Below are positions 13,239 to 15,414 of a stretch of DNA of 64,000 nucleotides, piece by piece. A program made the translations under genes and the position numbers. Each line of letters starts with the position of its first letter. The first letter of the stretch is position 1. Location: assembly GCA_029246685.1 (NCBI GenBank), contig JAQWMR010000015.1:62001-126000 (forward strand), written 5' to 3'. Origin of the DNA: Acidimicrobiales bacterium (GTDB lineage: Bacteria > Actinomycetota > Acidimicrobiia > Acidimicrobiales > Aldehydirespiratoraceae). The notes under the pieces were generated by a model. The model had not been told where the DNA came from and made no database searches. It was given only the letters and a program-made list of their open reading frames with translations.

Positions 13239-14222
13239 TCAGGCCAGGTGATTGCCGTCGAAGATCTCGCTCACAGAAGTGTCTTCGAAGACCGCAGAGA
13301 TCGCTCGGGCGATGATCGGCGCCACACTCAGGATCTCCATCTTGTCGAACTGCTTCTCCGGGCCCAGCGGGAGCGTGTCGGTGACCAATACGGTCTCGAT
13401 CGACGCGTTCTTCAAGCGATCGATCGCCGGTCCGGAGAACACGCCGTGCGTCGTCGCCACGATCACCTTGCCGGCTCCGTTCTCGGCCAGAAGGTCAGCC
13501 GCCGCGCAGATGGTGCCGCCGGTGTCGATCATGTCGTCGATCAGGACGCAGGTACGGCCCTGCACGTGGCCGATGATCTCCTTCGCTTCCACCGCGTTGG
13601 CTTCCTCCGTGGAACGACGCTTGTGGACGTAGGCCAGGTCGGCACCGAGGAGGTTGGTGTAGCGCTCCGCCACCTTCATGCGACCGGCGTCGGGCGAGAC
13701 GATCACCATGTCGTCGTCGTTCAGGTCCGCGAGGTAGTCGACGAGGACCGGCATCGCGACGAGGTGGTCAACCGGCCCGTTGAAGAAGCCCTGGATCTGA
13801 CCCGAGTGGAGATCGACCGACATCAGCCGATCGGCCCCGGCCGCGGTGAACAGGTCCGCGAGGAGCCGGGCGGTGATCGGCTCGCGGCCAGAGGCCTTGC
13901 GGTCCTGACGGCTGTATCCGTAGAACGGCGCCACCACGGTGATGCGCTTGGCCGAGGCTCGCTTGGCGGCATCGACCATGATCACGTGCTCCATGATCGC
14001 GTCGTTGATCGACCCGTCCTCCCACGCGGTGTGGGTCTGGATGATGAAGACATCGGAGCCGCGAATCGACTCGCCGTACTTCACGTGGATCTCACCGTTG
14101 GCGAACTCGGCGATGTTGGGCGAGCCCAACGGCCCGCCGAGCTCGTGACAGATGTCGGTGGCCAATTCCTGCGTGGCTCGACCCGCCACGACATGAAGCT
14201 TCTTGTGGTTCAGGAGTTGCAT
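13239..14222 (-). CDS. prs: ribose-phosphate pyrophosphokinase (PRPP synthase)
   Basis: A 327-residue class I PRPP synthase that makes PRPP from ribose 5-phosphate and ATP, for purine, pyrimidine, His and Trp synthesis. Landmarks are the N-terminal LHVVAGRATQELA with FANGEIHVKYGESIRGSDVF, the MVDAAKRASAKRITVVAPFYGYSRQD stretch, VSPDAGR, and the PRPP loop LIDDMIDTGGTI. The ATG at 14222 has an AGGAA ribosome site. Longer in-frame readings upstream overlap the neighbouring gene and lack family similarity. It lies between the GlmU-like gene and L25, the usual place in Actinobacteria. Confidence 0.97.
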   Translation of the reverse strand: MQLLNHKKLHVVAGRATQELATDICHELGGPLGSPNIAEFANGEIHVKYGESIRGSDVFIIQTHTAWEDGSINDAIMEHVIMVDAAKRASAKRITVVAPFYGYSRQDRKASGREPITARLLADLFTAAGADRLMSVDLHSGQIQGFFNGPVDHLVAMPVLVDYLADLNDDDMVIVSPDAGRMKVAERYTNLLGADLAYVHKRRSTEEANAVEAKEIIGHVQGRTCVLIDDMIDTGGTICAAADLLAENGAGKVIVATTHGVFSGPAIDRLKNASIETVLVTDTLPLGPEKQFDKMEILSVAPIIARAISAVFEDTSVSEIFDGNHLA

Positions 14223-14265: not shown

Positions 14266-15267
14266 TCATCGAGCGTCTGGACCCGCAGTGTAGAACGGCC
14301 CGGTGACGGTCGCGGCGAGGATCTCCGACCCCGGAGCGAGGACGGCGAACGGGCCGACGCGTGCGTGGTCGGCAATGGTTGCGAGCTCGGCCGACGTCTG
14401 TTCGAGGCGGCACTGTTCGCCGACTCGGGTGTCGACCAGATTGCAGCCGGGACCGATCTCGGAACCGGCTCCGATGGCCGTCGATCCGGTCAGCACGACG
14501 CCCGACGCGAGTGTGACGTCGACGTCCAAGGTGACCGTCGCGTCGATGAATGTTCGTTCCGGGTCGCGCATCGTGACGCCTCTGCGCATCCACCGGCGAT
14601 TGATCCTGGCCCGGAGGACCGCCTCTGCGTCGGCGAGATCGGCGCGGTCTCGGACGTCGATCACCTCATCGGCGGGCGCGGCGGCAAACGCCACGTCGTG
14701 ACCGGTCTCACGAAGAACCTCCGCGATGGCGGCGATCTCAGGAGCGTCGGTACGCCGCAGCGCCGGGGCGAGCAGTGATCGGCGCACGAACCACGCAGCG
14801 CTCGCCATCTCGGCGTCGTCCTCAGTCGGGTCGATGACGAGCGCTGTGGCCGCCGCATCGGACTGACGATGGATTCGGTAGAACGCTCGTACCGTCTCCG
14901 GCTCGAGCAGAGGAACGGACGCCGACACGACGAGGACGTCGTCGTCATCCGGATCGAGCTCGATGTCGAGCTCGTCCTCGGTCCAGCCGTTGAGCGCAAC
15001 CAACACGCCGACACACGGGTCATAGCGGACGTTGGCCGCCACCCGGCGAACGTCGGCATCGACGCCATCGAGCTCCTTGGCGACGGCATCGTCATCCGGA
15101 CCGACCACCACGGCAAGCCGACGCGGCTCGAGGGACGAGACGACATCGACCACGTGGGCGATCAGGGTGCGGCCGCAGATTCGGTGCAGGGCACGCGGCG
15201 TCGCGGAACGCATTCGGGCATCTGAACCGGTGGCGACGACGACGACGGAGGGAGCAACCGGCTGCAC
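14266..15267 (-). CDS. degenerate GlmU-like protein, probable pseudoenzyme
   Basis: A 333-residue protein aligned by eye along its whole length with the first three quarters of GlmU. RALHRICGRTLIAHVVDVV matches the nucleotidyltransferase start, and the GVTMRDPERTFIDATVTL block leads into a left-handed beta-helix (VGPFAVLAPGSEI). The catalytic features are missing. The LAAGxGTRM loop reads VATGSDARM, the following Pro-Lys is Pro-Arg, the GDVPL metal-Asp site reads SASVPL, and the chain ends before the acetyltransferase active-site region. A GTG at 15267 is taken as start, preceded by TAGAAA seven bases upstream. It sits at the canonical glmU position before prs. The call rests on comparison with E. 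coli GlmU from memory. Confidence 0.75.
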   Translation of the reverse strand: MQPVAPSVVVVATGSDARMRSATPRALHRICGRTLIAHVVDVVSSLEPRRLAVVVGPDDDAVAKELDGVDADVRRVAANVRYDPCVGVLVALNGWTEDELDIELDPDDDDVLVVSASVPLLEPETVRAFYRIHRQSDAAATALVIDPTEDDAEMASAAWFVRRSLLAPALRRTDAPEIAAIAEVLRETGHDVAFAAAPADEVIDVRDRADLADAEAVLRARINRRWMRRGVTMRDPERTFIDATVTLDVDVTLASGVVLTGSTAIGAGSEIGPGCNLVDTRVGEQCRLEQTSAELATIADHARVGPFAVLAPGSEILAATVTGPFYTAGPDAR

Positions 15268-15341
15268 GTGAAGGTTTCTAGCGCGGGAGCGGGCTAGGGA
15301 CGAACGCGCGGAGCAATCGATTCTCGCGATCGCCAGATGAG

Positions 15342-15414
15342 CTGGCCCGGCAGGGATCGAACCTGCGACATCCGGCTCCAAAGGCCGGCGTTCTACCAAC
15401 TGAACTACGGGCCA
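15342..15414 (-). tRNA. tRNA-Gln (anticodon TTG)
   Basis: A 73-base cloverleaf without encoded CCA. The acceptor stem TGGCCCG pairs with CGGGCCA. The anticodon stem CCGGC/GCCGG encloses the loop CTTTGGA, giving anticodon TTG. The T arm carries GGTTCGATCCC. The U1-A72 start is typical of tRNA-Gln. Confidence 0.96.

Follow-up and report, generated by a model that had tools for sequence, protein, structure and literature searches.

GlmU is regarded as a near-universal and doubly essential bacterial enzyme, the maker of the cell-wall sugar UDP-GlcNAc and an antibiotic target. In the window (the whole stretch of 64,000 nucleotides of Acidimicrobiales DNA that was analysed), the position of glmU is taken by a GlmU-like gene whose product has lost both active sites. 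The locus raises two questions: what keeps such a gene in the genome, and which enzyme makes UDP-GlcNAc in its place. The explanation favoured here, with modest confidence, is that the gene is a dead-site descendant of a short GlmU, that UDP-GlcNAc is supplied by another enzyme, for which a nucleotidyltransferase of the 3PNN type is the lead, and that the remnant is kept for a non-catalytic job.

The glmU locus of the window

The GlmU-like open reading frame is flanked by tRNA-Gln and prs (table 1). A preliminary description, made from the letters of the sequence, had placed it at the glmU locus before prs and had aligned its product with GlmU. Both points hold. The order is tRNA-Gln, GlmU-like gene, prs, and the GTG start codon aligns with Val in three sister species. 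The GlmU models NF010932 (E 1e-59, 202 bits) and TIGR01173 (E 2e-49, 169 bits) match the protein, although the curated cut-offs of 611 and 366.85, respectively, are not reached despite these strong E values. Homology covers the N-terminal domain and the start of the beta-helix, over residues 1-355, and the closest solved structures are GlmU proteins. Structure prediction, suggested earlier as a check, yields, from an input alignment rich in true GlmU, a GlmU fold with a mean pLDDT of 83; the structures nearest to it are Mtb GlmU, 4k6r and 6ge9. Confidence is low in the beta-helix region, where the pLDDT is about 60. A complete GlmU elsewhere in the genome was also sought. No second, intact copy was found in the window genome (93.85% complete, 20 contigs), nor in that of the sister species G004, which is a single contig and is in the same state.

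Table 1. Features of the glmU locus, the candidate replacement gene and a kinase gene that lies beside some 3PNN-type genes.
Feature	Position	Strand	Remarks
GlmU-like gene	14266..15267	(-)	333 aa; GTG start at 15267, TGA stop at 14266
tRNA-Gln (TTG)	15341..15414	(-)	upstream neighbour of the GlmU-like gene, same strand; locus anchor
prs (ribose-phosphate pyrophosphokinase)	13239..14222	(-)	downstream neighbour, same strand; locus anchor
Degenerate nucleotide-binding loop VATGSDARM	15211..15237	(-)	residues 11-19; canonical LAAGxGTRM
Residue 25, Arg for catalytic Lys25	15193..15195	(-)	E. coli numbering; from alignment
Segment replacing Q76/Q79/GTGHA	15007..15036	(-)	residues 78-87; genus form N-[VM]-R-x-D-[PS]-C
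Residue 117, Ser for metal-binding Asp105	14917..14919	(-)	from alignment
Junction of ~30-aa deletion	14805..14823	(-)	approximate (alignment gap); removes G140, E154 and the run-up to N169
Short left-handed beta-helix remnant	14293..14577	(-)	about residues 231-325; stops before the acetyltransferase residues
Candidate nucleotidyltransferase, 3PNN family	G000:C10:260642-261472		~280 aa
Galactokinase-like GHMP kinase beside 3PNN-type gene	L331 7336-8127		also L344, L351, L354, L356, L367, L384

Active-site residues

Residues were compared in an alignment of E. coli GlmU, which served as anchor and numbering, actinobacterial full-length GlmU and 29 relatives. Of the positions R18, K25, Q76, GT81-82, D105, E154, N169 and N227, the window copy has R18 only. 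The nucleotide-binding loop is altered, as had been described, but its Gly and Arg (G14 and R18) are retained. The Pro-Lys, the metal Asp of GDVPL and the Q/GTGHA segment had all been read as altered, and rightly so: Lys25 is Arg, Asp105 is Ser, Q76 is A, Q79 is R, and G81-T82 is DP. In addition, N227 is R and N169 is lost. On the acetyltransferase side, R333 is A, and beyond about residue 350 there is nothing, so that H363, Y366, N377, N386 and K392 are absent. The residue alignment thus bears out the earlier picture of a GlmU-derived protein without either active site. Conservation of the altered residues in sister species had been proposed as a check. The sister species G002, G004 and G006 are in the same state, sharing the deletion and most residue changes with the window copy; the loop Arg is His in G004, and the loop Gly is Val in G006. 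New genus-wide motifs, such as NVRxDPC and DPDDDDVLVV, stand at the old active site. In Mtb GlmU the substitution K26A abolishes uridyltransferase activity (PMC4619583). Because this single change is sufficient there and more sites are lost here, the window protein very probably cannot act as a uridylyltransferase.

A short GlmU throughout the order

In a set of 148 genomes of the phylum, GlmU matches extend to position ~435-452 almost without exception outside the window's order, also in the rest of the class; within that order (e.g. L018-L038) they end near residue 344. The window protein does end before the acetyltransferase residues, as first described, but this truncation is order-wide and not peculiar to the one copy. 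The order-wide absence of the C-terminal part indicates that the ancestor of the order lost the acetyltransferase half, and hence that another enzyme acetylates glucosamine phosphate. The substrate acetylated by this missing enzyme would be GlcN-1-P or GlcN-6-P.

Most short GlmU proteins of the order keep all or nearly all uridylyltransferase residues: in contrast to the window copy, they retain GTRM, K, Q, GT, D, E and mostly N. Fragment 1-352 of Mtb GlmU is active on its own as a uridyltransferase, and both activities of the full enzyme are essential (PMC4619583). By analogy with this active fragment and the dead K26A variant, the short form of the order is plausibly an active uridylyltransferase, and the window form is not. 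Some short GlmU proteins (L055, L056, L064, L068, L070, L084, L089, L111, L114 and others) share an altered G140, Asp in place of E154 and Ala in place of N169; the order members with these shared changes mostly carry a distant 3PNN-type homologue.

A long form of GlmS was considered as the missing acetyltransferase and rejected: families with truncated GlmU (G058, G130) have normal GlmS, and long GlmS occurs together with full GlmU in G076. No replacement emerged among the proteins considered, nor did a GNAT-type acetyltransferase stand out in the searches made. The long proteins, of about 1120-1150 aa (L212 4165-7593 (-), on G000:C10; also L216, L217 and L219), contain an insertion close to the N-terminus and, at the C-terminal end, an extension of ~310 aa without a Pfam match. 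Their genes adjoin glmM and acpS and are common in the class, with normal length in some families.

Loss of glmU within the family

A match to the window protein is present in 10 of 37 genomes of the family; the other 27 have none. The surviving copies differ in state. G012 has a near-intact short GlmU and no 3PNN-type gene. In G015, G013 and G020 the gene is part-degenerate. In the window genus it is dead-site but conserved. G025 retains a relic of ~39 codons of the C-terminal end (L223, about 1352-1468), between tRNA-Gln and prs. In G003, a member of the window's genus that is 99% complete, glmU is absent, which shows that at least one sister species can do without the remnant. Eleven genomes without the gene were checked: in 10 of them a tRNA-Gln lies about 25-110 bp before prs, at the place of glmU; in the eleventh, G010, the tRNA was not found in the stretch examined. 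Within this family, the GlmU-like gene represents one of the stages through which glmU is being displaced. Against its reading as a pseudoenzyme, the preliminary description had set an intact gene in close relatives and decay in this copy. That pattern was found in part: decay and deletion occur in other genera, and the gene is lost in the sister G003.

Selection on the dead-site copy

Among four species of the window genus (G000, G002, G004, G006), dN/dS is 0.25-0.38 for the GlmU-like reading frame and 0.06-0.14 for prs in the same genomes, a three- to fivefold difference. Differences at third codon positions are more than twice as frequent as those at second positions, and the codon-position bias is weaker than that of prs. 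Conservation of the N-terminal domain comes close to that of the helix. Since the deletion and lost residues are common to all four species, the loss is older than their split; neutral evolution over ~333 codons would be expected to produce 6-8 nonsense changes per lineage, and none is seen. To judge from these comparisons, the gene is not simply a neutral pseudogene: it is constrained, although less than a core enzyme. Catalytic residues gone in several species and a constrained protein sequence are what is expected of a pseudoenzyme under selection. GlmU trimerizes through its beta-helix (PMC11947611). The part of the helix that is kept would suit a scaffold or binding role, and the window protein may serve, for example, as a trimeric scaffold or binding partner.

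Candidate enzymes for UDP-GlcNAc synthesis

GlmM was found in 61 of 61 relatives, and cell-wall synthesis requires UDP-GlcNAc, which is therefore made by another enzyme. The need for another gene had been anticipated in the earlier reading, and with GlmM present and no other GlmU in the genome it stands. The best lead for a replacement uridylyltransferase is a candidate of the 3PNN family. Of the 37 family genomes, 33 carry its gene, among them 25 of the 27 that have no GlmU match; it is absent from G012, G025, G029 and G001. Two of these, G029 (94% complete) and G001 (66% complete), have neither gene, and G025 (98% complete) has the glmU relic only. Gaps, or else a third enzyme, may account for the lack of both working genes in G025 and G029. 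Beyond the family, G048 and G053 alone carry close copies (315-372 bits), and in both of them the active site of GlmU is altered (L037 in G048, L023 in G053). For 21 scored non-family genomes, GlmU is altered in 2 of 2 with a close copy and in 1 of 19 others (exact p about 0.014, 3/210, ancestry ignored). When the set is widened to 49 genomes, a homologue of any closeness is found in 19 of 20 with at least two altered sites versus 17 of 29 with at most one (p 0.004, ancestry again ignored). Presence of the 3PNN-type gene thus appears to track loss or decay of GlmU in the family and in G048 and G053, and more weakly in the wider sample.

The 3PNN-type protein retains G-x-G-x-R, K20, Q78, GT, D112/D113 and N199. 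Its predicted structure (pLDDT 93) is closest to 3PNN of Porphyromonas gingivalis (38% identical, TM 0.90), followed by UDP-glucose pyrophosphorylase, RmlA, GlmU and MurU. As a replacement, the candidate would use UTP and GlcNAc-1-P. The family is broad and is also found alongside an intact GlmU. Both Bacteroidota and Clostridia have relatives, and in a Hymenobacter plasmid the gene precedes a sugar-kinase-like gene. The neighbour in genus g9, and in two distant genomes, is a galactokinase-like GHMP kinase, so that the protein could serve galactose or other hexose-1-phosphates.

Several other candidates were set aside. AGX-type UDPGP (PF01704) is absent from the family, and elsewhere was present only in G042, which has an intact short GlmU. 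No tie was found for a ManC-phosphomannomutase fusion; TIGR01455 in G009 yields only glmM and one further mutase. A MocA-like gene near the locus (G000:C2:61079) has the MocA signature and is present whatever the state of GlmU. Hexapeptide proteins matching GlmU 302-428 (G000 C8 and C3) read as DapD-like and gamma-carbonic-anhydrase-like.

A model for displacement and its alternatives

The favoured explanation proposes the following events. The short, uridylyltransferase-only GlmU carried by the whole order would be the direct ancestor of the window gene. The copy of the window genus has, at the level of its sequence, lost UMP transfer to GlcNAc-1-P: Lys25, Asp105, Asn227, GT, Glu154 and Asn169 are all absent. 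Another enzyme, of which the 3PNN-type protein is the best lead, would have taken over UDP-GlcNAc synthesis. Released from this duty, glmU would then have become part-degenerate in some genera and been deleted in most; in the window genus a non-catalytic job presumably preserved it, with purifying selection weakened. Counted in favour is that G009 and G011 have no PF00483 protein other than a ManC-like one; counted against are the missing 3PNN-type gene in G012, G025, G029 and G001 and the missing remnant in G003. A more extended history, which would give Acidimicrobiales a route to UDP-GlcNAc independent of GlmU, can be proposed tentatively: the acetyltransferase half would have been replaced in the ancestor of the order, the uridylyltransferase half later by a 3PNN-type enzyme in at least one family, and the emptied GlmU of the window genus would have taken on a new, non-catalytic job.

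It is possible, if somewhat unlikely, that UDP-GlcNAc comes from an enzyme outside the 3PNN type, for example a non-homologous enzyme, or the universal ManC-like protein if its specificity is relaxed. In G009 and G011 the ManC-like protein is the sole sugar nucleotidyltransferase matching PF00483, with no match to GalU or RmlA in either genome, and G029 does without both GlmU and the 3PNN-type protein; but genomes with an intact GlmU carry ManC-like proteins equally, so that these do not track its loss, and AGX-type UDPGP is missing from the family. Simple decay after a recent loss of need, with the frame open by chance or leftover constraint and no present function, is improbable. The partial decay, relic and clean deletion in neighbouring genera would suit it, as would the gene-free G003 of the same genus, the raised dN/dS and the weakened codon-position bias, but the loss predates the split of four species that have gained no stop, and their differences are still concentrated at third positions. 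A repurposed enzyme, acting on a new substrate, as a nucleotidyltransferase or otherwise, through the loop Gly and Arg and new conserved residues, is more doubtful still: the retained G14 and R18, the genus-wide motifs at the old active site and the conservation of the N-terminal domain point that way, whereas Asp105, Asn227, Lys25, GT and the Glu154/Asn169 wall are all gone, and the changes of loop Arg in G004 and loop Gly in G006 leave no constant replacement chemistry evident. That the protein is still a working GlmU with unusual residues is scarcely credible. It has the locus and predicted fold of GlmU and is the sole GlmU homologue in its genome, but it has lost Lys25, where the single change K26A in Mtb GlmU kills the uridyltransferase, together with six or more other positions through substitution or deletion, and 27 family genomes live without the gene.

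Comparison with known systems

An order without the acetyltransferase half and a family mostly without the rest mean that the last two steps of UDP-GlcNAc synthesis can be rewired in free-living Actinomycetota. At this one locus the successive states can be seen together, from intact through part-degenerate, dead but conserved and relic to gone, which makes enzyme displacement directly testable, and one candidate uridylyltransferase is indicated.

The window protein resembles GlmU (TIGR01173/NF010932, bifunctional UDP-GlcNAc pyrophosphorylase/GlcN-1-P acetyltransferase) in homology, locus beside prs and predicted fold; it differs in lacking the uridylyltransferase residues and the acetyltransferase half, in its ~30-aa deletion and in a score far below the cut-off. 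With the short GlmU of the order (cf. Mtb GlmU 1-352 and the E. coli fragment 1fwy/1fxj) it shares C-terminal end point and locus. The lead protein is akin to the 3PNN-type nucleotidyltransferase of Porphyromonas gingivalis; some members in the class have theirs beside galactokinase-like genes. Reported cases include losses of GlmU in Chlamydia, the FCB group and Spirochaetes, the lack of complete GlmU pathways in Bacteroidota and a missing C-terminus in Chlorobaculum limnaeum (PMC7725333). These cases are alike in that GlmU or its acetyltransferase half is missing in free-living bacteria; the survey makes no mention of Acidimicrobiia, a retained dead-site copy or a 3PNN-type candidate. In the open-access literature, which the search covered, no paper on GlmU in Acidimicrobiia was found. 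Pseudoenzymes and non-orthologous displacement are both known kinds; their combination at glmU seems not to have been reported before.
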